From Haloferula helveola (GTDB lineage: Bacteria > Verrucomicrobiota > Verrucomicrobiia > Verrucomicrobiales > Akkermansiaceae), in assembly GCF_037076345.1 (NCBI RefSeq), contig NZ_AP024702.1:4960001-5024000 (forward strand): a stretch of 64,000 nt of DNA. The letters are read 5' to 3'. Position numbers and translations under genes: made by a program. Shown here piece after piece: positions 4,792-29,808 of this stretch (position 1 is its first letter; each line of letters begins with the position of its first letter). The notes beneath the pieces were generated by a model. The model had not been told where the DNA came from, searched no databases, and saw only the letters and a program-made list of their open reading frames with translations.

Positions 4792-4816
4792 TGTAACCAA
4801 CTGTAACCACTTTTGG
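4792..4816 (+). repeat. Left-end copy of the 25-bp island end repeat (candidate integrase arm site)
   Basis: Contains two TGTAACCA units 10 bp apart followed by CTTTTGG. It matches 29610-29634 at 24 of 25 positions in the same orientation. The location just inside the attachment repeat at both ends is that expected of integrase arm-type sites; binding is inference. Confidence 0.65.
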
Positions 4817-4851
4817 CTTTCCTGCATCGTGCTGCACACCATTCTGGCTCT

Positions 4852-9847: not shown

Positions 9848-9876
9848 CCTTCCGGCGGCGATGATCCTCTCCCGGC

Positions 9877-10170: not shown

Positions 10171-10206
10171 GGGGTCTTCCTCGATAGAGCCGCTGTGGAT
10201 TGACCA

Positions 10207-11214: not shown

Positions 11215-11287
11215 TGGGTGCCAGATTGACGAGTTGTAGCTCCTGTTACAACCACAACCGTCTCTATCGCCCTCTACAAGCTGGGGG

Positions 11288-12032: not shown

Positions 12033-15000
12033 GTGAACACAATCGACAACGTCAACGACCTCCTGGGTGACGATCTCAAGAGGACGGTCCAACCCGGAGC
12101 AAAGCTCCGAATCGCAGCCTCCTGCTTCTCGATCTACGCCTACGAGGCCCTGAAGGAGGAGCTGGCACAGGTTGAGTCGGTGGAGTTCATCTTCACCTCG
12201 CCGACCTTCGTGCACGGTGAGGCGACGGACAAGCTACCGAAGGAGAGGCGGGAGTTCTTCATCCCAAAGCTGGAGCGGGAGCGGAGCCTCTACGGGACCG
12301 AATTCGAGATTCAGCTCCGCAACAGGCTGACCCAGCGGGCCATCGCCCGGGAGTGTGCCGAGTGGATTCGCGGCAAGGCCACCTTCCGGTCGAACGCCAC
12401 GAAGTCGTCCATGCAGCAGATGGCATGCGTGGAGGGGGACGGCCAGGAGCCGGTCGTATATTTCCCTCTTCAGGGCTTTACTGCGGTGGACCTCGGCTAC
12501 CAGCAGGGCAACGCCCTCTCGAACATCGTCAACAAGTTCACCGGATCGCCGTTCACCGACGGCTACCTGCGGCTATTCGAGCAAATCTGGAATGACCGGG
12601 AGAAGCTTGAAGACGTGACCGAGCAGGTCTGCGACCACATCGCCGGAGTCTATTCGGAGAACTCCCCTGAGCGGATCTACTTCGTGATGCTCTACAACAT
12701 CTTCACGGAGTTCCTCGAGGACATCACGGAGGATGTGATGCCCAACGATCGGACAGGCTACCAAGACTCGGTCGTCTGGCGGAAGCTCTTCAATTTCCAG
12801 CGTGATGCTGCGGTGGGAATCATCAATAAGCTGGAAACCTTCAACGGCTGCATCCTCGCCGACAGCGTCGGCCTCGGGAAGACCTTCGCAGCACTTGCCG
12901 TGATCAAATACTACGAGCTTAGGAACAAGTCCGTTCTCGTGCTTTGCCCGAAGAAGCTCGCCGACAACTGGCTGACCTACAACCACAACCTCAAGACGAA
13001 CGTCTTGGCTGGCGACCGGCTGAACTACGATGTCCTGAATCACACCGACCTCCAACGGAAAAGCGGATACTCCCACGGCACCCCCCTCAAGCAGGTCAAC
13101 TGGGGCAACTACGACCTCGTGGTGATCGATGAATCCCACAATTTCCGGAACAACAACCCGGGCGAGGAAGAGCGGAAGTCCCGCTACGAGCTACTGATGG
13201 AGCAAGTGATCCGGGCCGGCGTACAGACAAAGGTCCTGATGCTTTCCGCCACCCCGGTGAACAACCGTTTCTCGGATCTGCGAAACCAGCTCGCCCTGGC
13301 CTACGAGGGTGAATCGGAGAAGCTCAGTTCCAAGCTCAAGACCAAGAACAGCATTGAGGAGATCTTCCGGCAGGCTCAGGCGGCGTTCACCCGGTGGAGC
13401 AAGATGCCGGCAGAGGAGCGGACACCGGAGGCCATTCTCAAGGCCCTCGACTTCGAGTTCTTCGAGCTGCTCGACAGCGTCACGATCGCCCGCTCCCGGA
13501 AGCACATCGAGGCCTATTACGATACAGCTGACATCGGAACCTTCCCTGAGCGCCGACCGCCTGTCGCGTTTCACCCGCCGCTGACGACGAGGGACGACGT
13601 CGATGGCTTCGACGAGATCTACGATCAGCTCACCCAGCTTGATCTCGCCGTCTACACGCCCGCAGAATACCTTCTCCCGAGTCGGCGGTCGAAATACGAG
13701 CAGGCCTACAGTGACGATCTCGAGGGAATTTCCCGCAACGTGAGTCTCGAGGGCCAGCAGAAGGGCATCCGAGCCCTGATGACGGTCAACCTTTTGAAGC
13801 GCCTTGAAAGCTCCGTCCAGGCCTTCCGAATCACCCTCGGTAAGCTGGAGGCCAATCACCGGAAGCTGCTCAAGCAGATCGCGGACTTCCAAGCGGGCAA
13901 CCGTTCGACGCTCTCGGTGTCTGGCATCGATGCCGAGAGCTTCGATCCGGATGACGACGAGCTCCCCGATCCCGACGAAATGACCTTGGGGGGCAAGAGT
14001 CAGATCGCGCTCGAGGACCTCGACTTGCCGTCATGGAAGCGGGCCATGGAGAACGACCAGTCGGTGATCCTCGCCCTGATTGCCGAGATGGAGAAGGTTA
14101 CTCCCGAGCATGACGCCAAGCTCCAGCACCTTCTCCAGCAGATTAGCTCGAAGGTCCAGTCACCCATCAATCCTGGTAATCGGAAGGTGCTTATCTTCAC
14201 CGCTTTCGCCGATACCGCCGACTACCTCTACGAGAACATCGCAAAGCGACACCTGCAGAAGTTCGGCCTCCACACCGGAAAGATCACCGGGACCACCAGT
14301 CCGAAGACCACCCTCGGCCAGGGTTACGACTTTCAGGACGTCATGACCCTTTTCTCGCCGATCTCGAAGGAGAAGGCGCTCGTAATGCCTGACGAGGAGG
14401 GCGTCATCGATCTTGTCATAGGAACCGACTGCATCTCGGAGGGTCAGAACCTTCAGGACTGCGATTACCTGATCAACTACGACATTCACTGGAATCCGGT
14501 ACGCATCATCCAGCGATTCGGCCGCATCGACCGGATCGGCTCCCCCAATGCGTGCATCCAGCTTGTCAACTACTGGCCGGACATCTCGCTCGATGAGTAC
14601 ATCAACCTCAAGGAGCGGGTGGAGAACCGCATGGTGATCGTCGACGTCACCGGCACGGGCAGTGACAACGTTCTCGACCCAAAGGCAAACGAGGTCTCCT
14701 ACCGAAAAGAGCAGCTTCGCCGCCTCCAGGAGGAGGTTATCGACATGGAGGACCTCAAGACGGGAATCTCGATCACCGACCTCGGCTTGAACGATTTCCG
14801 CATGGATCTCGTCAGCTACGTGAAGGAACACGGCGACCCCAGCCGCACGCCCAACGGCCTGCACGCCATCGTGCCTGCGAATCCCGAGCGCGGACTCGTG
14901 CCCGGGGTGCTCTTCACCCTCCGCAACCGGGAAGACGGAGTGAACATCGATCACCAGAACCGGCTCCACCCTTACTACCTCGTCTTCATCAGTGATGACG

Positions 15001-15308
15001 GGCAGGTTGTCACCCGTCACACTGAGGTGAAACGACTGCTCGATCTCGCTCGGACCGCCTGTAAGGGGAGGGGAGAGCCCTACGCCGATCTCTGCCGTCG
15101 TTTCAATGCGGCCACGAAAGACGGCCGGGACATGAGTCGCTACTCCGGTCTGCTCGATGATGCCATCCGCTCGATGATCGACGTGAAAGAAGAGGGCGAC
15201 ATCGACAGCCTGTTCCAGCCGGGCAAGACCACGGCGCTTGTCGATTCGATTTCCGGCCTCGACGACTTCGAGCTGATCTCCTTCCTGGTCGTTCAGCCAG
15301 CGGATTGA
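12033..15308 (+). CDS. SNF2-type helicase with N-terminal PLD-like domain
   Basis: A 1091-residue superfamily 2 translocase, first gene of the defence train. The GTG at 12033 (VNTIDNVNDLLGDDL) is chosen because upstream sequence reads through the structured region. Residues 20-200 look like a phospholipase D-type fold (LRIAASCFSIYAYEALKEEL, NIVNKFTGSPFTDGYLRLFEQIW), but I do not see the HxK catalytic motif. Helicase motifs are clear: motif I ADSVGLGKT (about 276-284), motif II DESH (about 366), motif III LSATPVNN, motif V TDCISEGQNL and motif VI QRFGRIDRIGS (about 827). The stop overlaps the region of the next gene's start. It probably moves on DNA as a sensor or loader for the system. Confidence 0.9.
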   Translation: MNTIDNVNDLLGDDLKRTVQPGAKLRIAASCFSIYAYEALKEELAQVESVEFIFTSPTFVHGEATDKLPKERREFFIPKLERERSLYGTEFEIQLRNRLTQRAIARECAEWIRGKATFRSNATKSSMQQMACVEGDGQEPVVYFPLQGFTAVDLGYQQGNALSNIVNKFTGSPFTDGYLRLFEQIWNDREKLEDVTEQVCDHIAGVYSENSPERIYFVMLYNIFTEFLEDITEDVMPNDRTGYQDSVVWRKLFNFQRDAAVGIINKLETFNGCILADSVGLGKTFAALAVIKYYELRNKSVLVLCPKKLADNWLTYNHNLKTNVLAGDRLNYDVLNHTDLQRKSGYSHGTPLKQVNWGNYDLVVIDESHNFRNNNPGEEERKSRYELLMEQVIRAGVQTKVLMLSATPVNNRFSDLRNQLALAYEGESEKLSSKLKTKNSIEEIFRQAQAAFTRWSKMPAEERTPEAILKALDFEFFELLDSVTIARSRKHIEAYYDTADIGTFPERRPPVAFHPPLTTRDDVDGFDEIYDQLTQLDLAVYTPAEYLLPSRRSKYEQAYSDDLEGISRNVSLEGQQKGIRALMTVNLLKRLESSVQAFRITLGKLEANHRKLLKQIADFQAGNRSTLSVSGIDAESFDPDDDELPDPDEMTLGGKSQIALEDLDLPSWKRAMENDQSVILALIAEMEKVTPEHDAKLQHLLQQISSKVQSPINPGNRKVLIFTAFADTADYLYENIAKRHLQKFGLHTGKITGTTSPKTTLGQGYDFQDVMTLFSPISKEKALVMPDEEGVIDLVIGTDCISEGQNLQDCDYLINYDIHWNPVRIIQRFGRIDRIGSPNACIQLVNYWPDISLDEYINLKERVENRMVIVDVTGTGSDNVLDPKANEVSYRKEQLRRLQEEVIDMEDLKTGISITDLGLNDFRMDLVSYVKEHGDPSRTPNGLHAIVPANPERGLVPGVLFTLRNREDGVNIDHQNRLHPYYLVFISDDGQVVTRHTEVKRLLDLARTACKGRGEPYADLCRRFNAATKDGRDMSRYSGLLDDAIRSMIDVKEEGDIDSLFQPGKTTALVDSISGLDDFELISFLVVQPAD

Positions 15309-15313
15309 TCCCT

Positions 15314-15970
15314 ATGTTCGCCTTTCCCCAGAAAACCGCGTTCGGGAAAATCATCCCCAAATCCCGGATCTATGCCCATGCCGAACCGAGCCGGCGCGTC
15401 CGCGAACTGTTCACCTCTCAAGTCGCCGAGATTCGCTGGGCCCACAAGCTGTCCCGCGAGACCCTGAACCTGCCTGAAACCGCAGGGGTTCCGGAAATCG
15501 AGATCTTCGAGATCCGGCTCAAGACGCCGACGCTCGACGACGCCGTCCTCGAGGCCATCGACCGGGCCATTCCCTATCCGATAGTCCATCGACTACGTTC
15601 GGAGCAGGGAGTCGCCCATAGTGCGGCCTTCAAGCGCCCGAGCGAGGTGGACTCAAGCCAATGGGTCGTGGGCTCCCGGTTCACCTCGGAGTTCCGGCCG
15701 CCCCCGGAGGACCTGCCGGCCTTGCCCACCGTTCTCGACCTCGGCCACCTCTACGGCGCCCTCATGGCGGGCCTGATGCCCCTCCCGGCCCGCAAGCGCG
15801 AGCCACTCGGAGACCAAGTCGCCCGCTGCGAGCGGTTCCGAATCCTGAAGCGGCAGGTCGATCAGCTCACATCCCGGATCCGCCGAGAAAGGCAGTTCAA
15901 CCGCAAAGTCGCCTTCAATCAGGAGCTGAAGCCCTTGAAGGCTGAGTTGGAGGCCCTCTCAGCTCCCTGA
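15314..15970 (+). CDS. DUF4391 family protein
   Basis: A 218-residue protein; ATG 15314 gives the typical family N-terminus MFAFPQKTAFGKIIPKSRIY. The run ELFTSQVAEIRWAHKLSRET, EIEIFEIRLKTPTLDDAVLE and AIDRAIPYPIVHRL is characteristic of DUF4391. The C-terminal helix (QVDQLTSRIRRERQFNRKVAFN) is probably a coiled coil. Members of this family are, as far as I recall, habitually encoded between an SNF2-like helicase and a Mod-type methyltransferase; the biochemical role is unknown. Here it follows the helicase by 5 bp, but a 149-bp gap and an AAA/protease pair separate it from the methyltransferase. Confidence 0.85.
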   Translation: MFAFPQKTAFGKIIPKSRIYAHAEPSRRVRELFTSQVAEIRWAHKLSRETLNLPETAGVPEIEIFEIRLKTPTLDDAVLEAIDRAIPYPIVHRLRSEQGVAHSAAFKRPSEVDSSQWVVGSRFTSEFRPPPEDLPALPTVLDLGHLYGALMAGLMPLPARKREPLGDQVARCERFRILKRQVDQLTSRIRRERQFNRKVAFNQELKPLKAELEALSAP

Positions 15971-16119
15971 CGCCAACCGAAGAGTGACCCGCTTTTTCCG
16001 ATCAAAACTTGCAGCCCCCCCCTGCATTTGTCCCATCCTCAGTGGCAGATTCTGCTCGAATGGTCGGTAGGATTATTCAAGGTTCCTTTAGCTCCCGAAT
16101 TGCAGGAAAACACCCCTTT

Positions 16120-17103
16120 ATGGCTACCGCTTCCCAGATCAAAGCCCTCTTGACCAGCCACTCCACGGGCGACAACGAGCGTTTTCATGCGGTCGCACTC
16201 CAACTCGCCGCGGCCGAGGCCCGGAAGGGCCACCAGAAGCTCGCCGACGAGATCCGGGAGCTGGTGAACGAGGCACGACGCAAGGCCCAGTCCGAATCGG
16301 CCTTCCAAAAGGTCCACAGCCTGGCCACGCCCCAAGGTGAGGCTGGGGAGCTGCTCGAACCCACTGAGACCCACCTTCACATCTCCGACCTCGTCCTCGA
16401 GGACTCGCTGCGGGAGCGGATCGAACGAATCGTCCAGGAGCAGAAGAACCTCAGCAGGTTGAAGGAGCGGAATCTCCGGCCCCGCCAACGGCTCCTTTTC
16501 ACCGGACCGCCCGGGTGTGGAAAGACGATCACCGCCTCGGCACTTGCGAACGAGCTTCGACTCCCGCTTTTCGTCGTGCGTCTCGACTCCCTGATCAGCC
16601 GCTACCTCGGCGAATCCCTCTCCAAGCTGCGTCTCATCTTCGAGGCGGCGGAGCGGCACCGGGCGGTCTACCTCTTCGACGAATTCGACAGCATCGGCTA
16701 CACCCGGGACGCCGCTGGCGACGTGGGGGAAATGCGGCGGGTGCTGAATGCCTTCCTCGTCTTCATTGAGAAGATGAAGAGCAACAGCCTGGTGATTGCG
16801 GCCACGAATTACGGAAGGCGACTCGATCCGGCACTCTTCCGCCGGTTTGATGATCTCGTGGAATTCGGGCTCCCTGAGCCACCCCAGATCCGGGAGACCA
16901 TCGAACGTCTGCTGAGGGATGTCGCGAAGGAAAAGCTCGTCTGGAAACGGATCCAACCCGCCGCCAAGGGGCTCAGCTATGCGGAGATTACCCGGGCTAC
17001 CGAGGAGGCGATCAAGGGGATGCTCATTCACGACCTGCCCAAGGTCACCAACGATGCCCTTTACGGGGCACTCACCGAAAGGAGACTTCACCTCAACCAT
17101 TGA
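16120..17103 (+). CDS. AAA+ ATPase partnered with the subtilisin-like protease
   Basis: A 327-residue single-domain AAA+ protein (ATG at 16120 after a GCAGGAAAA ribosome-binding site). An N-terminal helical region of about 95 residues precedes the ATPase core: Walker A GPPGCGKT (129-136), Walker B YLFDEFDS (Asp187/Glu188), sensor 1 AATNY and arginine finger RRFDD (about 240). The pore-proximal segment SLISRYLGESLSKLR places it with classic-clade (FtsH/Cdc48-like) ATPases. The protease gene starts 21 bp later, so this ATPase probably unfolds or gates substrates for it. Paired AAA ATPase/subtilase genes recur in defence-type islands. Confidence 0.9.
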   Translation: MATASQIKALLTSHSTGDNERFHAVALQLAAAEARKGHQKLADEIRELVNEARRKAQSESAFQKVHSLATPQGEAGELLEPTETHLHISDLVLEDSLRERIERIVQEQKNLSRLKERNLRPRQRLLFTGPPGCGKTITASALANELRLPLFVVRLDSLISRYLGESLSKLRLIFEAAERHRAVYLFDEFDSIGYTRDAAGDVGEMRRVLNAFLVFIEKMKSNSLVIAATNYGRRLDPALFRRFDDLVEFGLPEPPQIRETIERLLRDVAKEKLVWKRIQPAAKGLSYAEITRATEEAIKGMLIHDLPKVTNDALYGALTERRLHLNH

Positions 17104-17124
17104 GTCGTCAGATAAGTCTCCCCC

Positions 17125-19704
17125 ATGCCTGATCATCTCCCCAATCGACTCACGCACCTCAGGTTCACGCCGAACACTGAGCAGCTCGCCTACAAAGGTG
17201 ACGGTCGGGGCGACTTCAAGATCCGTCCCGTGGCTGATCGAGCCGGACACGTCTCCTACCTCCAACGGCAGGTGGCGGCTGTACAGCAGGAATTCGATAA
17301 GGTGGAGAAGGAGCGGGCGGACTTGGCGCTATCTTCGGATTTCGGGCTCATCCTGAACGTCACCTCGGAACCTGACCTTCCCTTGGCCTACTGGAGCCTG
17401 GAGAAAGCCCCCTCCAGCAAAGGGGAGGGGATTACCCTTCTCAACCTTAGGCATGAAAAGGACCAGCAAGGGCGAGAAATCACGAAAGCCGCCATCTTCG
17501 TTCCTCATGGGCAACTGGACGTCCTCGAGAAGAAGATCGCCGAGTACGCGGACCCCAGCAAGGACAGCAAGGACAAGGCTGGGAATGTCACCAATCCGCG
17601 GAACGCCCCTCTGCTCAACAACATCCACTCCATCTCCTCTGCGGCCGTCGATGCCCTATGGACAGACCCGGAGCCGCTCCCCGAGGCAGATGAGCCCTGC
17701 TGGTTCGAGCTGTGGATTCGACGAGATGACCAAAAGGACTGGCAGGGCCAACTCATCCAAGAGTGTGCCGAGCTCGGTATTGAGGTGCCGGAGCAGACCC
17801 TTGTCTTCCCCGATCACGTGGTCGTGATTGGCCACGGCACCCGGAGCCAGCTTGAGTCGTCGCTGGACCTGCTGAACTGCCTCTCGGAAATTCGCAAGGC
17901 CCGGCCCTGCAGCGTCGGACTCACCGATCTGAACGGCCTCGATCAGGAAGAGTGGATCGACGAGGCCCTTGAGAGGATCCAGTGGCCGGGCGACGACGCC
18001 CCGGCAGTCTGCCTGCTCGATACCGGGGTGAATCGCGGACACCCTCTCATCGAGCCCGCTCTTTCACAGAGCGATATGTCCACGGTGTTCGGCGATGGGG
18101 ACACTGCGGATGACAACCAATTGAAGCACGGCACGCCCATGGCCGGACTGGCCGCATTCGGGGACCTGCGGACGCTGATGATGTCCACCCAGACGTGGGA
18201 TCAGCTACATCGCCTCGAGTCGGTGAAGCTCATTCGCAGCTCCACCGAGCATGATCCTGAGAACTACGGTGCCGTCACACTCGCCGCGATCAATGAGCCG
18301 GAGAGTATCGCCCCGGACCGCCCACGGGTCTTCTGCATGGCGGTCACCGCGGATGGTCCGAATACCTTCGGCAACCCCAGCGCCTGGTCAACTGCCGTGG
18401 ACATCGCCGCCGCAGGTGCTCAGAACGAAACCGACCAAGCACGGGTCATTCTCGTTTCCGCCGGCAACACCGAGGTGCACGACGAAACTTTCAGCTATCC
18501 CGACACCATGCGGGGCAACCCAGTGGAGGATCCGGCCCAAGCATGGAATGCCATCTCCGTTGGAGCCGTCACCCATCGTACGACCATCACCGAGGACGAT
18601 GATGAGGCTCGTCGCTGTGACCCTCTCGCTCCGGAGCACCACCTCAGTCCATACACTCGCACCAGCCATGCTTGGTGCCTTGGGCGGAAAGACTGGCCGA
18701 TCGCTCCGGACGTAGTCATGGAGGGAGCCAATCTCGGAAAACATCGGGACTTGGAGAACGAATATCCCGCCTTCGACTCCTTGGCGCCTCTCACCACGGC
18801 ATCCAATTTCAACCTCCGGCCGATCGCTCCCTTCAACGCCACCAGTGCCGCGACCGCACTGGCGGCACGAATCGCCGCTCAGGTCACCCAGCGCTACCCG
18901 GATGCCAGCCCGGAAACCATTCGCGGCCTCCTTGTGCACTCCGCACGCTGGCCCCAGGCGGTCCTCGATCGCCTCGGTCTCGATCCCCATCAAATGAGGG
19001 GCAACGAGGCGATGCAGGACCTCATGCGTGGATACGGATTCGGCGTGATCAATGAGCAGCGTGCCTTGGATAGCCTGGGAAACCAAACCACCTTCTTCAC
19101 CGGAGAGAGCATCCAGCCTTACAAGGGCAGGGCCGGCGACGCCAGTTTCAACGAGTGCCACCTGATCAGGCTCCCTTGGCCGGTTGACTTGCTTCAGGCA
19201 AATCCGAACGTCACCTGCACGCTCCGGGTCACTCTCTCCTACTTCATCCATCCGAATCCCGGGACGCGCTCTTGGGACAATGGGCAGAAATACAAGTATG
19301 CGAGCCACCTACTGGGCTTCACGCACAAGCACAAAGAGCACAGTCTCGAGGAATTCCGCTCACGCCTCCACGCGGAGGAGGAAGCTCTTGTCGGGAGCTT
19401 GAACGACCCCGGCTGGGCCATCGGCCCAAAGCTTCGAGGCAAGGCCGGCTCGCTGGTTCAGGACGTCTGGCGAGGTCCGGCCGCCGACCTCGCGGCCATG
19501 GAAGCCATCGCGGTCTTCCCCCGAGCCAAGGGATGGTGGGCGACCCGCAAGTACGCCGAGGGACGGCAGGAACACAACTGCCACGAGAAGACGGTCCCAT
19601 ACTCACTCATCGTCAGCCTTGAGATCGATGCGGATCTGCCGGTCTACACCGAAATCGAGGCCGCCATCCAAGCCATCGAAGCAGGCATCGACATCACGAC
19701 CTGA
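17125..19704 (+). CDS. Subtilisin-like (S8) serine protease, cytoplasmic
   Basis: An 859-residue protein without signal peptide. The first 290 residues are an accessory region with a helical segment (YLQRQVAAVQQEFDKVEKERADLAL). The S8 catalytic domain follows with Asp299 (CLLDTGVNRGHP), His335 (KHGTPMAGLAAFG), the oxyanion Asn in SAGNTE and Ser574 in NATSAATALAA. The usual GTSxA box reads ATSAA, so the Gly is changed but the nucleophile is kept. A C-terminal beta-rich region (about 640-859) ends the chain. With no secretion signal and an AAA partner upstream, it probably cleaves an intracellular target upon invasion, as in caspase-like or abortive-infection logic (inference). Confidence 0.9.
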   Translation: MPDHLPNRLTHLRFTPNTEQLAYKGDGRGDFKIRPVADRAGHVSYLQRQVAAVQQEFDKVEKERADLALSSDFGLILNVTSEPDLPLAYWSLEKAPSSKGEGITLLNLRHEKDQQGREITKAAIFVPHGQLDVLEKKIAEYADPSKDSKDKAGNVTNPRNAPLLNNIHSISSAAVDALWTDPEPLPEADEPCWFELWIRRDDQKDWQGQLIQECAELGIEVPEQTLVFPDHVVVIGHGTRSQLESSLDLLNCLSEIRKARPCSVGLTDLNGLDQEEWIDEALERIQWPGDDAPAVCLLDTGVNRGHPLIEPALSQSDMSTVFGDGDTADDNQLKHGTPMAGLAAFGDLRTLMMSTQTWDQLHRLESVKLIRSSTEHDPENYGAVTLAAINEPESIAPDRPRVFCMAVTADGPNTFGNPSAWSTAVDIAAAGAQNETDQARVILVSAGNTEVHDETFSYPDTMRGNPVEDPAQAWNAISVGAVTHRTTITEDDDEARRCDPLAPEHHLSPYTRTSHAWCLGRKDWPIAPDVVMEGANLGKHRDLENEYPAFDSLAPLTTASNFNLRPIAPFNATSAATALAARIAAQVTQRYPDASPETIRGLLVHSARWPQAVLDRLGLDPHQMRGNEAMQDLMRGYGFGVINEQRALDSLGNQTTFFTGESIQPYKGRAGDASFNECHLIRLPWPVDLLQANPNVTCTLRVTLSYFIHPNPGTRSWDNGQKYKYASHLLGFTHKHKEHSLEEFRSRLHAEEEALVGSLNDPGWAIGPKLRGKAGSLVQDVWRGPAADLAAMEAIAVFPRAKGWWATRKYAEGRQEHNCHEKTVPYSLIVSLEIDADLPVYTEIEAAIQAIEAGIDITT

Positions 19705-19740
19705 ATACCCTCCGCCAACCTCTTTCCAACTTCGCCAACC

Positions 19741-19974
19741 ATGACCTCTGCTGCCCTATTTATCCGATCCGTCGATGACGGAACTGAATACGCCTGTCAG
19801 AAACTCAACCTGATCGGATCGCACCCCCTGGGAGGCAATCTTGAGTGCCCGCAGGTGTTCGATGTCGCAGGAAGAATTGGTCGCGTGTTCGAGGTAGTCC
19901 CGCTGGGCTTCAAGATCAAGATCACCCCGGGTAGCGCCGAGCCGAAGCAACCCACTTTTGTCGTGGAGTCGTAA
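19741..19974 (+). CDS. Orphan 77-residue protein between protease and methyltransferase
   Basis: No family recognised. The frame starts at ATG 19741, 36 bp after the protease gene, and ends 28 bp before the methyltransferase start. The protein has no membrane segment. It looks like a small beta-rich fold: MTSAALFIRSVDDGTEYACQ, GSHPLGGNLECPQVFDVAGR, VFEVVPLGFKIKI, with two Cys residues. Size and position would suit a protease inhibitor, pro-peptide-like factor, adaptor or antitoxin for a neighbour; none of these is demonstrated. Conservation in other copies of the cluster would decide whether it is real. Confidence 0.6.
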   Translation: MTSAALFIRSVDDGTEYACQKLNLIGSHPLGGNLECPQVFDVAGRIGRVFEVVPLGFKIKITPGSAEPKQPTFVVES

Positions 19975-20002
19975 AGCGCCGCACTCACTCATCCTGCAAG
20001 CT

Positions 20003-22024
20003 ATGGACAAACTCAAACTGCACACTCCGGACTTTGTGGAGGCCAACGCTGCGAAGCTGGCGGAGCTGTTCCCGAATTGCGTTACCGAAAGTCGGGCTGA
20101 GGATGGATCGATCAAGCGGGCCATCGACTTCGATCTGCTGCGACAGGAACTGTCCGGCGATCTGGTGGAAGGAGTTCAGGAACGCTACCGGCTGGATTGG
20201 CCGGGCAAGCGGGAGTCCTTGGCCCTCGCCAATGCCCCGATCACCAAGACCCTGCGGCCCTGCAAGGAGGAATCGGTGGACTTTGAAACGACCCGAAATC
20301 TCTACATCGAGGGCGACAACCTTGACGCCCTCAAGCTGCTCCAGGAGACCTACCTGAACCAAGTCAAGATGATCTACATCGACCCGCCCTACAACACCGG
20401 GAACGACTTCATCTACGACGACAACTTCTCGATGAGTAGGGAGGATTACGAGGATGAAGCTGGTGAACGTGATGAAGAGGGTAATGCGATGTTTGACGAG
20501 GAGAAATGGAAGCAGAACTCGAGTGCGAGTGGTCGCTTCCACTCTGAGTGGGTGTCAATGATGTACCCCCGCCTCAAGCTCGCACGAAACCTGCTTCAGG
20601 AAGATGGTGTAATCCTTGTTAGTATTGATGATGGGGAAGTCGCCAACCTTATCAAGATTGGGAACGAGGTATTCGGGGAGCAAAACTTCGTAGGGAACTT
20701 TGTGTGGGAAGGGGGGCGAAAAAACGACGCAAAGCTGGTGTCCAATAGTCATGATTTCATTTGTTGCTGGGTCAAATCACGGGATCTCCTGACAGAGAGA
20801 AATGTGCGGTGGCGGGAGCGGAAGGCTGGATTGGACGATATATACAAACAGGAATCGTTGATCCGGAAGAGAAACGGAAAGGACTTCGAGAAGTGTCGGG
20901 CTGATCTCAATGAATGGTTTCGCAGTCTTCCAAAGGACCACGGAGCTCTTCAACACAAGCACTTCAGTTATTTTGATCAGCGAGGGCTCTATGCTCCTGC
21001 AGACCTTCGGAGTCCAAATCCTCGTCCAAACCTCGTCTACGACTGGAAGGGATACAAGCCCCACAAGAATGGATGGGCATACGCAAAGGAGCGTATGGCA
21101 AGAATGGATGCGGAGGATCGGCTCCATTATCCAGCGTCCAGCGACGGTCGAATTGCCCTCAAGTCGTATCTCCATGAACACGAGACTTGGGCGCCCAGTT
21201 CGGTTTTTTACCAAGATCGTAGGGCTTCATCCAAGAGGCTTTCCCGGCTCTTGGGAAAAGGCGTGTTTCCATTTTCGAAGGACGAGAATGTCATCAAGAG
21301 ATTCATAAAGAGCTGTGCAGCTGAAGACTCTCTTGTCGTGGATTTTTTCTCTGGGTCCGGGACTACTGCCCACTCAGTAATTCAGCTCAACGCTGAGGAC
21401 GGAGGAAATCGGAGGTACATTGCAGTGCAGCTTCCTGAGCCGTGTGAAGAGAAGAGTGAAGCATTCAAAGCGGGCTACTCGACAATTTCCGACATTGGGA
21501 AAGATCGGATACGCAAAGCGGGTTCTCAGATTCGAGAAGGCCTTCAAGCCAGTCTCGACGGGGAGCTGAAGGATACCGAGAGACATCAGGAAATTACACG
21601 ACGCATTCAGGATCTCGACATCGGCTTTCGCGTCCTGAAGATCGATAGCTCAAACATGGCTGACGTCTATTACCAGCCAGACGAGGTCACTCAAGATGGC
21701 CTCGATTTTCAGGTCGATAACCTGAAGGATGGGCGTGAACCCGAAGACCTCCTCTTCCAAGTTCTTCTGGATTGGGGGGTCGATCTCGGCCTGCCGATCA
21801 CCGAAGAGGTGATCGAGGGCAGGCGTGTCTTCTTCGTGGCCGACAACGCGCTCGCCGCCTGCTTCGATACAGGGCTGACCGAGGACTTCTGCAAGACCCT
21901 CGCCAAGCGGGAGCCGCTGCGAGCCGTCTTCCGCGACGCCGGCTACGCCAGCGACTCCACCAAGATCAACATCGAGCAGATATTCAAGGCCCTCAGCCCC
22001 CACACCGAGCTCAAGACACTCTGA
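20003..22024 (+). CDS. Type III-like DNA adenine methyltransferase (Mod)
   Basis: A 673-residue beta-class N6-adenine methyltransferase. ATG 20003 (MDKLKLHTPDFVEANAAKL) is the family-typical start. The catalytic motif DPPYNTGNDF starts at Asp127, preceded by the LYIEGDNLDALKLLQETY block; the SAM-binding motif VDFFSGSGTTAH lies at about 446-456, giving the beta order (DPPY before FxGxG). The interval 150-445 is the target recognition region. By eye, 20440-21660 is more AT-rich with different codon preference than both flanks, which suggests exchange of the recognition domain. Together with the Res gene at 26372 it would form a type III restriction-modification enzyme, but four kilobases of other genes lie between them. 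Confidence 0.93.
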   Translation: MDKLKLHTPDFVEANAAKLAELFPNCVTESRAEDGSIKRAIDFDLLRQELSGDLVEGVQERYRLDWPGKRESLALANAPITKTLRPCKEESVDFETTRNLYIEGDNLDALKLLQETYLNQVKMIYIDPPYNTGNDFIYDDNFSMSREDYEDEAGERDEEGNAMFDEEKWKQNSSASGRFHSEWVSMMYPRLKLARNLLQEDGVILVSIDDGEVANLIKIGNEVFGEQNFVGNFVWEGGRKNDAKLVSNSHDFICCWVKSRDLLTERNVRWRERKAGLDDIYKQESLIRKRNGKDFEKCRADLNEWFRSLPKDHGALQHKHFSYFDQRGLYAPADLRSPNPRPNLVYDWKGYKPHKNGWAYAKERMARMDAEDRLHYPASSDGRIALKSYLHEHETWAPSSVFYQDRRASSKRLSRLLGKGVFPFSKDENVIKRFIKSCAAEDSLVVDFFSGSGTTAHSVIQLNAEDGGNRRYIAVQLPEPCEEKSEAFKAGYSTISDIGKDRIRKAGSQIREGLQASLDGELKDTERHQEITRRIQDLDIGFRVLKIDSSNMADVYYQPDEVTQDGLDFQVDNLKDGREPEDLLFQVLLDWGVDLGLPITEEVIEGRRVFFVADNALAACFDTGLTEDFCKTLAKREPLRAVFRDAGYASDSTKINIEQIFKALSPHTELKTL

Positions 22025-22028
22025 CGCC

Positions 22029-23987
22029 ATGGAGCCGATGCAGACCAGAGTACGGTGCGTCGGTGTTGTCGAATCATCCCCCGAATCCATGGAGAAAGAG
22101 GTGACGCTACCCCGATCGGACGAGTTCGAGATTCAGGCTCGAAGCTGCACCCTTTTCACGAACGACCGCGTTCCCCACGACGTTCTCTGGCGACCCGGAG
22201 TCCGCTACCGCGTACCGATTTTTCAGCGGCCATATTCATGGGGAATCGCCGAAGTGCATCGGCTGATGACGGATCTCCTGATGGGCTACTTCGGAAGGAA
22301 CGGCCGGATTCCACGGGAACAGATGTTCATCGGGACGATGCAGCTCTCCGCTGCCGAGACCGGCTCATGGGGCGACTACGAGATTCAGCACGACATCATC
22401 GATGGCCAACAGCGGATCTCAACACTGATCCTGATCCTGAAGGCCCTTCAAGACCTGGTGCCCGAACTCTCGATTTGGCCGCGTCTGGATTTCCAAAAGC
22501 GTCTTACCACAGCCGTGAGCGGCAAGATCCAGCAAGACTACCTCCAGCGGGCTTTGGAAACCGGAGCCGATGACCTCAATGATTCCGCCGAACTCAACGC
22601 CTACCTCCGCAACCTTACCGGCATCAGGGACCAGATCAGGGATGACGATGAGTTCGACGCACTGAAGGCGGATATTGGCAGCTTTGTCGACTACCTCTGT
22701 TCCCGAGTTTACTTCGTGATCATCGAGACCCGGGCACCCCTCTCGAAGACCCTCCAGATTTTTGATGCGATCAATACGTCCGGCATGGAGCTGGATGGTG
22801 GGGACGTCTTCAAGATCCGCTATTTCGAGTTCCTCCGGAAGCGTGAGGGAGCAGCCGAGGAGGTCTTCCATGAGGTCTCCGCCCTGTACGAAAGGATTGA
22901 TCGCGAGAACTCAAACCAAAAGCGGGCTGTCTTGGAAATTGGGGAAGTCCTCGCACTTGCCCAGCAGATCCTCATCACAGACCACGAACTGAGCAACGAG
23001 ACCCGCTCTCTCGCAGGTACGACCTTCTTCGAGCGCCTGCTCGACGTTTCTCTCGGCCTCCAGAACTGGGAAAACTTTCAGCCCGACAAGTGTCGACAGG
23101 TGCGGTTGCCGCTCCGGTTCTTCAGCGACCTGATCGGGGTCCTCATCGAGTGGGACGCCCGCCTGAAGCAGTTCCGCCCGGAGGCCGACGCCATGATCTG
23201 GTTTATTTGGTGGAGCCGTTACGGCCGCTACCACTACCTGCCCGCCTACTTCCTGCACCGCTTCCGGGACCGTTCCGACCGGGACACCGTTGCCTTTCAA
23301 AGCGAACTGGAGGAGTTCGTCATCGAACTCGGGAAACTACTCGTGGTCTACAGCTTGAGGTACCAGCGGGTCACCAACGAAGGCAGGCAGAAGGCTCGTG
23401 AGCTGATGACCCTGATGTCCAGCAATGCCACCCATATCGAGCCGACAGACGTGATCGCCTACCTGCAGCTGGAGCGGGCGAAATGCTCCGGCGAGATCCG
23501 GGAGCGATTGTTGACCGATTGGATCGCCCATATTCCGAAAGCCAAGAATCTGGTCTGCCGCCTTGTCGCGATGTTCACCGAACTCGAAGTCGACTCCGAG
23601 CCGGAGAATCTCGGGGCGCTCCTGTTCGAGACACCCATCGACATCGAGCACATCGAATCCGCCAACCACAAGGATCCCATGGAGAGGGAGCGGATCCATC
23701 AGGATTGGGGAGCAGAGCTCCATCAGCTTGGCAACCTGACGGTCCTGGAATTTGACCTCAACCGGTCGATCGGCAACCACGACTATGCTACCGAGAAGCG
23801 GGCCCGCTATCTGGCAGAGAGCCGGTTCCGGTCCGTGCAGACCTTCGCCGAAGAGAATGCTGAATGGAACCAAGAGCGTGCCCGTGCCCGCCGCGAGGCT
23901 CTTGCGGAGCGGTTGACGGGGTATCTTTGCGGTCCTTCGCCCCGAGGCAAAGAGCAGAGGCCTGCCTCAGCGAGCGTCCCAGTTTAG
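22029..23987 (+). CDS. GmrSD-type protein (DUF262 plus HNH nuclease)
   Basis: A 652-residue single-chain homologue of the GmrS/GmrD modification-dependent restriction enzyme. The N-terminal DUF262 domain has VPIFQRPYSW (from residue 62) and the ParB-like nucleotide motif IIDGQQRISTL (Asp125). The C-terminal DUF1524-like HNH region has IEHIES (His541), then HQLGNLTVL (His565) and a YATEKRARY tail. The family cuts DNA with modified cytosines or acts on phage DNA in an NTP-dependent way. It begins 4 bp after the methyltransferase stop; the ATG at 22029 is the longest start and an ATG at 22089 is an alternative. Cytoplasmic, co-transcribed with its neighbours. Confidence 0.88.
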   Translation: MEPMQTRVRCVGVVESSPESMEKEVTLPRSDEFEIQARSCTLFTNDRVPHDVLWRPGVRYRVPIFQRPYSWGIAEVHRLMTDLLMGYFGRNGRIPREQMFIGTMQLSAAETGSWGDYEIQHDIIDGQQRISTLILILKALQDLVPELSIWPRLDFQKRLTTAVSGKIQQDYLQRALETGADDLNDSAELNAYLRNLTGIRDQIRDDDEFDALKADIGSFVDYLCSRVYFVIIETRAPLSKTLQIFDAINTSGMELDGGDVFKIRYFEFLRKREGAAEEVFHEVSALYERIDRENSNQKRAVLEIGEVLALAQQILITDHELSNETRSLAGTTFFERLLDVSLGLQNWENFQPDKCRQVRLPLRFFSDLIGVLIEWDARLKQFRPEADAMIWFIWWSRYGRYHYLPAYFLHRFRDRSDRDTVAFQSELEEFVIELGKLLVVYSLRYQRVTNEGRQKARELMTLMSSNATHIEPTDVIAYLQLERAKCSGEIRERLLTDWIAHIPKAKNLVCRLVAMFTELEVDSEPENLGALLFETPIDIEHIESANHKDPMERERIHQDWGAELHQLGNLTVLEFDLNRSIGNHDYATEKRARYLAESRFRSVQTFAEENAEWNQERARARREALAERLTGYLCGPSPRGKEQRPASASVPV

Positions 23988-23996
23988 TCTGATATC

Positions 23997-26363
23997 ATGC
24001 GTGAAGTCATTTACATCGACCAAGCCGGATTCCGCGAATCCATGATGCGATTGCGGAAGAAGGGTGGAGCGTCCCAGCGGGCCTTCGACGAAGCCTGCCG
24101 GATTATCAAGTGCCTCGAGCTGGAGGCGGACGTCAGCAACAAGCTCACAAAGCACGGCGAGAGCCGGATCGATCACTGCATCAAGTACGATATCAGCAAC
24201 GACGCCCACCGACTGGTCACGGTTCACACCAACAACTTCATCTACCTTCTTTTCATCGGCTCCCACGATGAGACGGAAAGCTGGTTGAACCGGAATCGTG
24301 GCCTGACCGTCACTTGCAACCCATCGACCCGCAGGATCACGGTGACCCACGTTACCCGGGACGAACCCCGCGAGACTCCCCAGGTCAGCATGGAGAACTT
24401 GACCGAGGCCAACCTGCCCTACCTGGAACGGATCGGCGTGGATCCGGCCGAATACGTGTCGCAGCGGGTGCTGGCACGGTCCCTTTCGCGGATCAATGAC
24501 GATACCTCGGACGAAGAACTGGGGGAGCTTGTCGAAGATCTGAGTGACGTCGACAAAGCGATCTCAAACCTTATGCTCGACCTGCTTTTCGAGATTCGGG
24601 AGGGAAAGCTGGACGCTGCCGAGGCCAGGCTTGAGCAGTACCATGCCGAGGCCGTGGCCGTACAGGAACAGGAGGAACTCGAGAGGGAGGCCATCGCCTC
24701 CATCGAGAATTCCGAAAGGCTGATCAATTTGACCGGCCTCAACGAGGAACAGCTGAAGGATTTGTTCTCACCAGGAAAGTTCCACAAATGGATGCTCTTC
24801 CTCCATCCAGAGCAGAAGCGGGTCGCCGAGGCAAAGTATGAACGGCCCACCGTGCTGACCGGCGTTTCAGGGAGCGGCAAGACCTGTGTGCTCGTGCATA
24901 GGGCCCGTCAGCTTGCCCGCCGGTATCCTGGTGAACGGATCGGAGTCATCACGCTCAATCGGAGCCTTACCCGCCTGATCGACAATCTCATTTCCCAGCT
25001 CTGCACCGAAGAAGAGCGGGCCAACATCCACGTGACGGCTTTCTACGACTACTTTGCCGGCCTTGTGGAGCATTTTACTCCGGCCAAGGAGCTCGATCAG
25101 CTCAGGGATCTCGCTGCTGGCCACGACGAGAGCGACGACATACTTCGTGCAATCGATCGGGTGGACCCCAAGAGATTCGCCCGCGAATTCTGCCAGCTTT
25201 CAGGGGAGACGCTTGACGATACATGGGCCCTTTTCTGTGACCAAGATTCGGTTCGGACCCGGCTGACTTACTTCCGGGAGCACTTGTACAAGTACGACGA
25301 CTGGGTCGACAGCCGGAAGTATCTCAGGGAGGAGTTCAGCCTGATACGAAGTGCGGTTCCGACCTCGAACCGGGTCAAAGGCTACCAAGAACTGGAACGG
25401 CACGGACGGGCGATCCGCTTCACGGACGCCGTGAAGAAAAACGTGCTCGAAATGCTGTTGCTCTACGAGGAAACCATGTTCACCGGCGGAATTCTTGACG
25501 AGCTGGGCCTCACCCTCGCCTTGGTTCCGCACCTCACCGAACTGAAGACCCTGCCGCCGGAGATGAGATTCCGGTGCCTCTTGATTGACGAGTTCCAGGA
25601 TCTCTCAACGCGGGATTTGGCACTGCTTCGCCTCATTCCGACAGGCACCGACGACGGCTTCTTCCTGACCGGAGATACGGTGCAGCGGGTGATGGTGAAG
25701 GACCTTCGCCTCGGCGCGGTGGGTCTCGACATCATCAACTCCACCCGGGAGCGGATTCTGAAGAATTACCGGAATAGTCGACAGATTCTCGAAGCGGCCT
25801 CCTATCTGGCCAACGCCTATGGCAAAGAGGCGAAAGATCTCGGCGAGGACGTGGAGGTCCTCGACCCCGAGCTTGCGGTACGCGAAACCAGCTATCCGAT
25901 GGCCGTGGAGTGCGAGGCAGGCAAAGATGTGAGCCGGGCTTGGGAGTATGCACGCGAATGTATCCAGACCGGAGCCGCAATACCGTGGTCGATTTGCATT
26001 GTGACCGCCAGTGAGGAGATATCACCCGCCGACATCATCGCAGCTTGCCCGGCGGACTTTCCTGTAAAGGCGGGCAAGATTACCGGCGACTATACTGAGC
26101 AGACGGATACGCTGAGCGTCGCTTCGATGGCGGACGTGAAGGGCTTCGAATTCTCACTCGTCCTCATCGTTGGATGCGGAGCGAAGCTGCTTCCCAGCAA
26201 GAACGGCTGCCAGAAGGAGTCGTGGCGGGAGGCTCTACGGCTCTACGTAGCGATGACCCGGGCCCGCGACGAAGTGCGGCTGTTTTACTCAGGAAAGCCG
26301 TCACCGTTCCTGGCGACGATGAACGAGGGCCTCTACTGGCAAGAACTTGGGAAGGAAAGCTGA
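23997..26363 (+). CDS. UvrD/Rep-type helicase with RelE-like N-terminal domain
   Basis: A 788-residue superfamily 1 helicase. Residues about 20-105 look like a RelE/ParE toxin fold ([17 protein letters not shown] helix, [26 protein letters not shown]). A helical, acidic linker (about 170-245) leads to the helicase: Walker A GVSGSGKT (289-296), motif [11 protein letters not shown] (Asp531), motif [12 protein letters not shown], motif [11 protein letters not shown], motif [10 protein letters not shown] and motif [14 protein letters not shown] (about 748-759). It starts 9 bp after the GmrSD gene and ends 8 bp before res. The head domain could be an RNase or a binding module; catalytic residues cannot be assigned by eye. 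Confidence 0.87.
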
Positions 26364-26371
26364 GCCGATCG

Positions 26372-29300
26372 ATGAAACTCCAATTCAAGCACAAGGAATA
26401 CCAAGCCGCTGCGGTGGATGCCGTGGTCGATTGCTTCGCCGGCCAGCCGAAGGTTGAGGGCGTCGGCTACCGGCTCGATCCCGGCAAGATGGCTGCGAAG
26501 CAGACCCAATCGGAAATGGACTACGGCACCGAGGCCTTTCGCAACGCTCCGATCATGCTCGATGACGGACAGCTGCTGGAGAACATTCAGAAGGTCCAGC
26601 GGGGCCAGAACCTGCCACAGTCCTCGTCCCTGACCGAGTTTACGGTCATCGACGGCAAGAAGAACAAAAAGTCGGCGGTCAAGGCCTCATATCGGAAGGA
26701 AATCCTGGCTGCCTCGTCCCTCCACCTCGATGTAGAGATGGAGACGGGAACCGGGAAGACCTACTGCTACCTACGGTCGATGTTCGAGCTGAACCGCCGC
26801 TACGGCTGGAGCAAGTTCATCGTGGTGGTCCCGAGCATCGCCATCCGGGAAGGGGTCCAGAAGTCCCTCGAAATCACCGCCGAGCATTTCCTCCAGGACT
26901 ACGGCAAGAAGGCCCGCTTCTTCACCTACGACTCGAAGCACCCACACAAGCTGGAGAGCTTCTCCTCCGACGGGGGGATCAACGTGATGGTCATCAACGT
27001 CCAGGCCTTCAATGCAACTGGTCAGGATGCCCGGCGGATCTATGAGGAGCTGGACGATTTCCAATCCCGCAGGCCGATCGATGTGATCAAGGCGAACCAT
27101 CCGATTCTGATTCTCGACGAACCCCAGAAGATGGAGGGGAAAAAGACGATCGAATCCCTAAAGGAGTTCAACCCGCTCTTCATCCTCCGCTACTCGGCCA
27201 CGCACAAAACCGAGCACAACAAGATCCACCGCCTCGACGCCCTCGATGCCTACAACCAGAAGCTGGTGAAGAAGATCCGGGTGCACGGTATCGCCCAGAA
27301 GGGCCTGAGCGGAACGGACTGCTACCTTTTCCTCGAGGCGATCGTGCCTGCCCAACCGAAGGCCTACGCCCGGCTCGAACACGAGGTAAGACTGAAATCG
27401 GGAGCGATCAAGCGAGTCGTGCGACGGGTCGGAAGTGGCTACAACCTCAAGGAGCAGTCTGGTGGCCTCCCACAATACGAAGGGTTCGTTGTCAGCGAGG
27501 TTGATGCCCATCATGACACCATTTCGTTCCGGAACGACCTGAAACTGGAGGTCGGAGCCGTCAGCGGGGACATCACCGAGTCCGCTCTCCGGCGGATCCA
27601 GATCCGCGAAACCATCCGGGCTCACTTCGAGGCCGAGAAGAAGCTCTTCGATCAGGGAATTAAGGTCCTGAGCCTCTTCTTCATCGATGAGGTGGCGAAG
27701 TACAAGCAGTACGACGACGATGGCAACGAGCTCGGCGGCGAGTACGCCACCGCCTTCGAGGAAGAATACGAGCAGGCGCTCAACGAGGAACTGGATCTCG
27801 AGGACAGCCCCTACCAGCGCTTCCTCAAGGAGATCACCGCGGCGGATACCCACAACGGCTACTTCTCCATCGATAAGAAGAGCAAGCGGCTGGTTGACCC
27901 GACGGTTAAGTCACGCGGCGAGGACGCCGGCACAGCGGACGACGTGGATGCCTACGACCTGATTCTCCGCGACAAGGAGACTCTCCTGTCGTTTCCGGGG
28001 CCGCACGATTCGGACCTCGACCGGCGGAAGAAGCAGGTGCGGTTCATCTTCTCCCACTCCGCCCTGCGGGAAGGTTGGGACAACCCGAACGTCTTCAACA
28101 TCTGCACCCTCAAGCACAGCGATAGTACCATCTCCCGGCGACAGGAAGTGGGTCGGGGAATGCGGCTATGCGTGAACCAGCACGGCGAGCGGATGGATAA
28201 CCCTGCGACCGCCCATCAGATCAACGTGCTGACGGTCATCGCCAACGAATCCTACGACGACTTCGTCCGTGGCCTGCAGGATGACATCAGGAACGGCCTT
28301 TCCGACCGACCACGGAAGGCAACCGAAAAGTATTTCACCGACAAGATCCTCAAGACCGAGGATGGCGAGATCAAGGTCACGCCGGCTATGGCGACCAAGC
28401 TTCACCGCTACCTCGTGAAGCAGGATTATGTCGATGACGATGACAATGTCACCGAGGCCTATCACATGGCCAAGAAGGAGGGCACGTTGGCCGAGCTTCC
28501 CGAGGAGTTGAGGGCCTATGCCGCCCAGCTCTTCCAGCTCGTCGATTCGGTTTACTCCGACGCCGCCCTGCCCGACATCGAGGACGGCCGGAAGGCCAAG
28601 CCGAACGTCCTCAACGAGAACTTCAAGAAGAAGGAGTTCCAGGACCTGTGGGAGAAGATCAACCGGAAGGCAGCTTACACCGTTGACTTTGACAGCGATG
28701 AGCTGATCGCGAAGTCCATCAAGGCTCTCGACAAGGACCTGCGGGTCGAAGAGCTGCGGTTCCAAGTGGTACGCGGCGAACAGGAGGACACCATCGCCCA
28801 CGAGGACCTTGCTGCCCGCGATAGCTTCAAGGTGAAGGAGCGGGAGACGGAGTACATGAAAGGCTCCATTAGGGCGACCGTGAGTTACGACCTGATCGGC
28901 GAGATGGCCGAGCGGACCCAGCTGACCCGCCGAACCGTGGCCGCCATCCTCAAGGGCATCAACGTTGCTGTATTCGGCCGTTTCAAGGCCAACCCTGAGG
29001 CGTTCATCAGCAAGGCCGCTACCCTCATCAAGGAGCAGAAGGCCACCATGATCATCGAGCACCTCGCCTACGACCCGATCGACGAGCGCTACGATTCGAC
29101 GATCTTCGCCGTGGAGAAGGCCAAGGAGGACTTCTCAAAGGCCTACAAGGCCAACCATCACATCTACGACTACGTCTTCACCGACTCCAAGGTTGAGAGG
29201 GAGTTCGTTGAGGAGCTGGACACGAGTGCCGAGGTGGTGGTCTACGCCAAGCTCCCCCGTGGTTTCGCCATCCCGACCCCCGTCGGCGACTACAACCCCG

Positions 29301-29506
29301 ATTGGGCGGTGGTCTTTGACTCGGGCAAGGTCCGGCATGTCTATTTCATCGCCGAGACCAAGGGATCGATGTCCAAGCTCGAGATCCGGCCGATCGAAGA
29401 ATCGAAGATCGACTGTGCCCGGAAGTTCTTCGCCAAGATCTCCACCGACCAAGTAAAATACGATAAAGTCGACAGCTACGACGAGCTCCTGAAGCTGGTC
29501 AGGTAG
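26372..29506 (+). CDS. Type III restriction enzyme, Res-type helicase-nuclease
   Basis: A 1044-residue Res subunit. ATG 26372 follows a GGAAGGAAAG ribosome-binding site; an earlier in-frame start would overlap the UvrD gene by 190 bp and adds unrelated sequence. The SF2 motor has METGTGKT (about 123-130), LDEPQKMEG (about 248), RYSATHK and QEVGRGMRL. The C-terminal PD-(D/E)xK nuclease is visible as YNPDWAVVF followed by FIAETKGS (Glu near 994, Lys near 996). With Mod it would translocate on and cut unmethylated DNA. It is the last gene of the train and lies about 225 bp from the right island end. Confidence 0.93.
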
Positions 29507-29604: not shown

Positions 29605-29644
29605 GATTCTGTAACCAAGTGTAACCACTTTTGGTTACAGAATC
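29605..29644. repeat. Perfect 13-bp inverted repeat at the right island end
   Basis: GATTCTGTAACCA (29605-29617) is exactly inverted at 29632-29644, with 14 bp between. The right-end copy of the 25-bp end repeat (29610-29634) lies within it. Three TGTAACCA-type units thus occur here against two at the left end. Probably a cluster of integrase or excisionase binding sites (inference). Confidence 0.65.
29610..29634 (+). repeat. Right-end copy of the 25-bp island end repeat
   Basis: Identical to 4792-4816 at 24 of 25 positions and in the same orientation; two TGTAACCA units and CTTTTGG. It lies about 100 bp inside the right attachment repeat. Confidence 0.65.
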
Positions 29645-29732: not shown

Positions 29733-29779
29733 TGGTACCCCGTCTTGGACTCGAACCAAGGACCAAAAGATTAAGAGTC
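29733..29779 (-). repeat. Right attachment repeat within tRNA-Lys
   Basis: The 3' portion of the intact tRNA, from anticodon stem to CCA, matching 4705-4751 at 45 of 47 positions. Recombination probably takes place in the uninterrupted identical run GACCAAAAGATTAAGAGTC, which covers the anticodon loop. Confidence 0.92.
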
Positions 29780-29808
29780 TTCTGCTCTACCAACTGAGCT
29801 AACGAGGC
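29733..29808 (-). tRNA. tRNA-Lys (anticodon CTT)
   Basis: A 76-nt cloverleaf on the minus strand with encoded CCA. The acceptor strands are GCCTCGT and ACGGGGT (two G-U pairs), D arm GCTC/GAGC, anticodon arm GAAGA-CTCTTAA-TCTTT with anticodon CTT, and T arm CTTGG-TTCGAGT-CCAAG. Its 5' half is of host origin and its 3' half was supplied by the island on integration. The displaced host 3' half at 4705-4751 has an A-U instead of a U-A pair at 51:63, and both versions fold. Confidence 0.95.

Follow-up and report, generated by a model that had tools for sequence, protein, structure and literature searches.

The DNA analysed here is a 64-kb stretch of the Haloferula helveola genome (contig NZ_AP024702.1, positions 4,960,001 to 5,024,000; below, the window), and its subject is an array of nine genes within a 25-kb island at a tRNA-Lys gene. 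The island carries a type III restriction-modification (RM) operon of the helicase-linked type, and this operon is probably a carrier of interchangeable defence cassettes. Judged by sequence comparison, the nine genes are unequal parts: a four-gene core (helicase, DUF4391, Mod and Res) and cargo lying in slots between the core genes. The core is conserved, slot content shows high turnover on the helicase tree, the content of both slots differs from that of the nearest relative by replacement at gene boundaries, and the whole nine-gene set persists in a second species. The array is real, mobile and modular; its cargo genes are of known kinds, and two species have them in this combination. A single nine-part machine is unlikely.

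Anatomy of the nine-gene array

The array consists of nine uninterrupted frames, all on the + strand at 12033..29506, with successive intergenic gaps of 5, 149, 21, 36, 28, 4, 9 and 8 bp from 5' to 3'. These frames bear out a preliminary description made from the sequence alone, which had listed nine co-directional genes separated by 4-36 bp and, once, by 149 bp. Its family assignments agree with profile matches, except that the RelE head it gave to the UvrD gene was not confirmed directly. Genes and slots, the latter including open reading frames (ORFs) of no named family, are as follows.

12033..15308, + strand: core gene 1, SNF2/SF2 helicase with an N-terminal PLD-fold domain that lacks the HKD motif
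15314..15970, + strand: core gene 2, DUF4391 (PF14335, 177.5 bits, cut-off 29.9)
15971..20002: slot A, cargo stretch from DUF4391 to Mod
16120..17103, + strand: IetA-like AAA ATPase, slot A (PADLOC IetA 247.6 bits; NCBIfam IteA 206.7 bits, below the cut-off of 510)
17125..19704, + strand: IetS-like S8 (subtilisin-type) protease with D, H and S motifs, slot A (PF00082 184.9 bits; PADLOC IetS 120.0 bits)
19741..19974, + strand: 77-residue ORF, slot A (an ORF in the corresponding position in H. luteola is 43% identical; one other relative)
20003..22024, + strand: core gene 3, Mod, beta-class DNA methyltransferase (PADLOC MTase_III 692.7 bits)
22025..26371: slot B, cargo stretch from Mod to Res
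22029..23987, + strand: GmrSD-family type IV restriction-like enzyme, slot B (PF03235 88.0 bits, PF07510 45.2 bits, both above cut-off)
23997..26363, + strand: ArmD-like UvrD/GajB-type helicase with a possible RelE-like head, slot B
26372..29506, + strand: core gene 4, Res, SF2 ATPase with a C-terminal PD-ExK endonuclease domain (PF19778 118.3 bits; PADLOC REase_III 1048.6 bits; motifs)

Mod and Res are type III enzymes, the former by its beta-class arrangement with DPPY (at 127) and FxGxG motifs (FxGxGTT at 449), the latter by the joining of an SF2 ATPase to a C-terminal PD-ExK domain. The core helicase has SauUSI as its best fold match, and its head looks like an inactive pseudo-PLD. In the array the score against the DISARM component DrmD was 148.9 bits, under the NCBIfam cut-off of 610. 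The core helicase is present in five phage records, and no viral contig with DUF4391 was confirmed. The structure model of DUF4391 is confident (predicted local distance difference test 96.2). It gave no Foldseek match at E<=0.001, its VIA matches fell almost exclusively on the C-terminal helical part, and the protein has no sequence relative in the PDB. In E. coli, helicase DNA of the plasmid type was matched in 68 of 5,426 complete genomes, and 59 of the 68 places are chromosomal.

In slot A, the IetA and IetS genes are adjacent with a gap of 21 bp, the arrangement of IetAS by PADLOC matches. The protease scored 30.6 bits against NCBIfam IteS, whose cut-off is 900, and because both proteins fall under the IteA/IteS equivalog cut-offs the pair is named IetAS-like. 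In slot B, the GmrSD protein unites DUF262 and DUF1524 in a single chain; with respect to the EHxxP nuclease motif given in passages of PMC12707154, it has EH at residue 540 and no P at that spacing. Gene 8 is homologous to ArmD across the helicase and part of the head, at 23-26% identity in the aligned parts, and its head matches that of ArmD with no direct match to the ParE family. Direct support for a RelE head was sought and not obtained: neither Pfam on N-terminal pieces nor a PDB sequence search favoured it, and a profile run against 23 ParE-family sequences scored 15.2, the best of 30 shuffles reaching 15.8. Metagenome contigs carry relatives of the window's UvrD at 85% (P0002, P0003) and of its IetS at 87% (P0124). 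On plasmids, IetS matched 421 records at E<=1e-30, every one below 60% identity, and UvrD matched none at E<=1e-40.

From their families, Mod would methylate a short asymmetric site and Res would cut DNA with unmethylated sites, while the helicase and DUF4391 may support recognition or translocation. The IetA/IetS-like cargo of slot A and the GmrSD and ArmD-like helicase of slot B would add further layers of defence, with phages carrying modified bases (for GmrSD) and phages able to block restriction as example targets. We infer co-transcription, these activities, and a cargo that acts beside the core rather than as its subunit.

Conserved core and exchanged cargo

A survey of 110 loci, chosen by helicase or DUF4391, covered how fixed the core is and how variable the slots are. 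Of 387 genomes sampled from the phylum, 28 have DUF4391, and 20 regions were fetched; a scan with a helicase alignment gave at least 590 matching places in the genome collection, of which the best 80 were kept; and 10 plasmid loci were added from 109 matching records. The set includes the window and excludes L049. Since a longest-ORF caller at times picks antisense frames, core genes were called with profile hidden Markov models. In 100 of the 110 loci the genes for helicase, DUF4391, Mod and Res follow one another in that order on the same strand. The frame, which the preliminary description had named as a known type of neighbourhood, is real and widespread. The ten exceptions are six loci that are incomplete at a contig or record end (L050, L056, L082, L083, L101 and L113) and four with a part missing or fragmented (L044, L075, L128 and L140). 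The first set was selected by DUF4391; among the 90 helicase-chosen loci DUF4391 is present in 88. As assigned from record titles, the best 80 scan loci span about 12 phyla: Verrucomicrobiota, Pseudomonadota, Acidobacteriota, Actinomycetota, Bacillota, Bacteroidota, Planctomycetota, Spirochaetes, Campylobacterota, Desulfobacterota and two candidate groups. Two loci have a tandem Mod pair inside one core (L119:13973-17727 and L125:13942-17772). Small helix-turn-helix (HTH) genes scoring above the NCBIfam MAD1 cut-off lie directly 5' of the helicase in two others (L051:15804-16004 and L193:12172-12336); the two window ORFs tested for the same family, at 11526-11998, gave no match.

The slots vary. 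Counting a slot as occupied at 300 bp or more (shorter ones counted as empty, though L081 and L088 hold ORFs of about 92 residues), slot 0, between helicase and DUF4391, is occupied in 14 of 106 loci, slot A in 26 of 105 and slot B in 48 of 101. Among the 100 full loci, 46 have no occupied slot and 18 have both A and B filled; where a slot is empty, the core genes are mostly 2-60 bp apart. Clustering of ORFs of at least 80 residues, which leaves the 77-residue ORF outside, grouped 111 cargo ORFs as 57 clusters, and several families are shared between slots. A Pfam-named representative exists for 25 clusters (74 of the 111 ORFs) and is lacking for 32, some of them unscanned. Many of the families scanned with Pfam and PADLOC are of defence or toxin type: they include SLFN_AlbA_2 with HATPase, RhuM, Bro-N, GmrSD, Abi_2/AbiD, Fic/SoFic, UvrD, AAA_21/HEC-01A with DUF4276, YhcG nuclease, SIR2 with HerA, RES, DUF6088 and 23S_rRNA_IVP. 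The last, with a protein of about 120 residues, is the recurrent occupant of slot 0, where all seven members of its cluster lie (C01; loci L036, L066, L071, L092, L098, L104 and L113). Co-directional ORFs cover 120,912 of the 134,351 bp of occupied slots. The window's GmrSD has same-cluster relatives in two other loci, L039 and L110; its IetA, IetS and UvrD have none among the cargo ORFs of the other 109.

Replacement is seen most directly in the nearest relative, locus L078, whose source genome is read as belonging to the same genus as the window. DNA identity between L078 and the window is 85.5% in the helicase, 78.7% in DUF4391, 86.3% and 87.5% in the two ends of Mod and 84.3% in Res, with no DNA match in slot A or slot B. 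Similarity ends near the end of DUF4391 and restarts at the Mod start codon (ATG 20003), then ends at the Mod stop (22024) and restarts at the Res start codon (ATG 26372); the two restarts support these start codons. The cargo of L078 consists of DUF6088 and Abi_2 in slot A, SLFN_AlbA in slot B and, in slot 0, a 479-bp stretch without known family. The middle part of Mod, about 20651-21617, where a single 182-bp piece matches at 68%, also appears to have been exchanged and is presumably the recognition region.

The same nine genes in the window's order are found in Haloferula luteola (G389). A cargo search of 244 genomes of the family, the window's own included, recovered UvrD in 2 and IetS in 9, and the two occur together on a 28,244-bp contig of that species. 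Protein identity to the window is 87% for the helicase, 71% for DUF4391, 83% for IetA, 75% for IetS, 43% for the orphan, 58% for Mod, 59% for GmrSD, 81% for UvrD and 80% for Res, and similarity is bounded by the helicase start and the Res end. Slot A additionally contains a DUF6088 and AbiEii pair, and slot 0 an ORF of 87 codons. Discovery of the combined order in another genome had been set beforehand as a test of the nine-gene set, whose absence from every other genome was to count against it; H. luteola supplies such a genome. As this genome was found through the cargo search, it has no bearing on how frequent the set is. Seven other genomes have IetS, and in the stretches fetched from six of them the IetA/IetS pair is accompanied by no core gene, a negative bounded by contig ends close to the pair in L183, L184 and L188. 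UvrD homologues in G139 and G012 likewise lie away from the core.

A quick tree of 108 helicases placed the window and L078 as sisters (Shimodaira-Hasegawa-like approximate likelihood ratio test support 95), H. luteola next (99) and then L043 (100). The simplest reading is that the nine-gene set predates the split of the window and L078, and that both cassettes were lost from L078 or replaced there; less simply, the cargo may have been transferred into the window lineage. Set against 500 label shuffles, changes of slot content on this tree come close to the shuffled counts, and numbered 13 for slot 0 (shuffled mean 13.9), 24 for slot A (24.0) and 40 for slot B (45.4). The count for slot B lies under the minimum of 41 in the 500 shuffles, so that a weak family signal is kept there.

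The tRNA-Lys island

The array lies in an island bounded by direct repeats of the tRNA 3' end, with an integrase beside them, and so has the marks of a site-specific tRNA island. Its features outside the array are as follows.

4705..4751, - strand: 47-bp partial duplicate of the 3' end of tRNA-Lys, attL-like (96% identity with 29733-29779)
4792..4816: left copy of a 25-bp inner direct repeat (96% identity between the copies)
4813..6105, + strand: tyrosine integrase (phrog_1 100 bits; PF00589 under its cut-off)
6777..6992, + strand: excisionase-family HTH protein (TIGR01764 37.7 bits, cut-off 28.8; PF12728)
29610..29634: 25-bp inner direct repeat, right copy
29733..29808, - strand: intact tRNA-Lys (CTT), attR side of the island

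The left inner repeat is a possible arm site of the integrase. Other island genes, at 6102-6728 and 6989-11496, encode proteins of 208, 356, 217 and 379 residues and a Sel1-repeat protein, and at the limits used only the last had a Pfam or PHROG match.

Unoccupied sites were sought in nine same-genus stretches containing the tRNA-Lys site or the left flank and in two around L078; ten of these eleven were compared, L162 being left out as a copy of L161. In L161, L164 and L166 a single tRNA-Lys in the stretch adjoins the window's right-flank gene (31064-32611), and in L165 and L166 the tRNA directly adjoins the sequence that, in the window, lies left of the partial tRNA copy. L167 has nothing of the window's neighbourhood beyond the tRNA, and L168 and L169 have near it just a 44-45% relative of 29869-30945. 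The tRNA-Lys stretch of H. luteola has no island. These unoccupied sites in relatives indicate that about 25 kb was inserted at this tRNA in the window. The window's left chromosomal flank was found beside the tRNA in none of the compared stretches; in the genome of L161 it is on a separate contig (L163), and hence no fully symmetrical empty site was observed.

Competing explanations and known systems

The preliminary description had proposed that the nine genes form one composite system, in which Mod marks self, the helicases sense or process unmarked DNA, and the protease is a second effector arm; in an obligate form of it, GmrSD and the protease would both be arms that need the core. The same genes, order and strand in H. 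luteola, the short intergenic gaps and the low dN (nonsynonymous) relative to dS (synonymous) distances between the two species (0.115/2.09 for IetA, 0.175/2.13 for IetS and 0.36/1.23 for GmrSD, with UvrD left out and dS above 1 near saturation) would fit such a system, yet it is very unlikely. The nearest relative has a near-identical core with neither cargo set, nearly half of the full loci lack cargo of at least 300 bp, IetA, IetS and UvrD are without relatives in the cargo of the other loci, and IetA/IetS pairs in the stretches fetched from six other genomes of the family, like UvrD homologues in G139 and G012, occur without the core. The description as a whole is partly supported: its anatomy stands, and its reading of one composite system with the protease as a built-in arm is not supported.

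An ordinary defence island, that is, independent neighbours without special slots whose regular look comes from the clustering of defence genes, is also quite improbable. The locus does lie within a tRNA island, and defence-type genes occur just outside the core too (DUF262 proteins in L052 and L053, AAA ATPases in L051), whereas cargo is co-directional over about 90% of the occupied slot length, replacements respect gene boundaries and core genes close up to mostly 2-60 bp where a slot is empty. A tentative possibility is that the type III core holds or times its cargo, which would come into play once restriction is inhibited by a phage, in the manner of PrrC beside EcoprrI. Passages of PMC12707154 give precedents in PrrC and in the sensing of Ocr by PARIS, the cargo sits between core genes, and recurrent cargo includes AAA_21 and DUF4276 pairs and Abi, Fic and RES-type toxins; some cargo families, however, also occur alone. 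In its widest form, which is rather unlikely, the operon would be a general plug-in immune platform: the type III complex would serve as the guarded sensor, with slots A and B as dedicated docking sites within the transcript from which effectors (protease, GmrSD, Fic, Abi, SIR2 or a PARIS-like pair) are released when restriction is blocked, and the recognition region and both slots would be exchanged independently.

Several observations weigh against a carrier of interchangeable cassettes. The persistence of nine genes at 43-87% identity in H. luteola would fit mutual dependence too. The array of that species may be partly decayed, or its assembly imperfect: in contig C37 (L181, L182), Res is two open stretches of 817 and 181 codons, only 816 codons of it entering the dN/dS comparison, and a TAA interrupts the UvrD frame once. 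Relatives of the 77-residue ORF are too few for it to be classed as cargo of a known type, and it shows little constraint against its H. luteola copy (dN/dS 0.56/1.00). In 4 of 88 slots, antisense ORFs are the longest. The carrier reading is still the probable one, and it has practical consequences. It provides a search rule for defence genes, namely the DUF4391-Mod and Mod-Res gaps of this type III lineage, and because more than half of the cargo clusters are without a Pfam-named representative the slots are a good place to look for new families. A natural swap experiment is provided by the window, L078 and H. luteola, with their shared core and different or enlarged cargo. If cargo is guarded by the core, the PrrC principle would extend to type III systems and to proteases.

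The statement in the preliminary description that known defence systems do not contain this set needs correction, since the pair in slot A is IetAS-like and gene 8 is ArmD-like, and since type III systems with a helicase gene 5' of mod were described in 2021 (PMC8259958). According to that paper, a conserved SF2 helicase-like ATPase is encoded 5' of mod in type III systems of more than 500 genomes, Eco86II and BspHIV among them, is dispensable for methylation and in-vitro cutting, and has a function unknown there; m4C (N4-methylcytosine) methylation is reported for systems of this type. In gene layout the window operon resembles that group, having Mod, Res and, 5' of mod and in the same orientation, a gene for an SF2 helicase-like protein; it differs in DUF4391 as a fourth core gene and in cargo that splits the operon. 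A text search of PMC8259958 returned no 'DUF', and its passages mention no cargo. NCTC86 is not among the matches listed (60 of the 68 E. coli helicase records and, separately, 40).

The array is also like embedded-defence operons, where a second defence gene stands within the operon of a first, and several cargo families match PADLOC HEC and PDC models. A 2024 preprint by Payne et al. reportedly, to go by its title, concerns defence genes embedded in other defence operons. Passages of PMC12629846, which cites that preprint, describe defence genes embedded in type I RM loci; unlike that case, the frame here is type III with up to three slots, two of them filled in the window, and slot-by-slot replacement is observed between close relatives. 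EcoprrI, within whose RM operon the effector PrrC is encoded (passages of PMC12707154), is likewise an RM operon with an effector gene inside, although it is type I and the effectors here differ. The neighbouring AAA ATPase and S8 protease resemble IetAS by PADLOC matches, and differ in scoring under the NCBIfam cut-offs and in their site within a type III operon. Homology of gene 8 to ArmD recalls ARMADA type II (passages of PMC12458937), unlike which the nine genes include no ArmA, ArmB or ArmC, and profile scans gave no PglX-type or YprA-type gene. The core helicase shares with SauUSI a PLD-fold head fused to an SF2 ATPase, and differs in lacking the HKD motif and in the presence of separate Mod and Res. 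In the literature searched (titles and abstract starts, with few subscription papers or preprints), no paper describes cargo in this type III frame, and 'DUF4391' appeared in one paper only, on a saccharibacterium. Type III systems linked to a helicase are already known, as are defence genes within restriction operons, and with the PrrC precedent they make the general idea known as well. Not found in that literature, and apparently new, is a multi-slot type III carrier that has DUF4391 as its fourth core gene.

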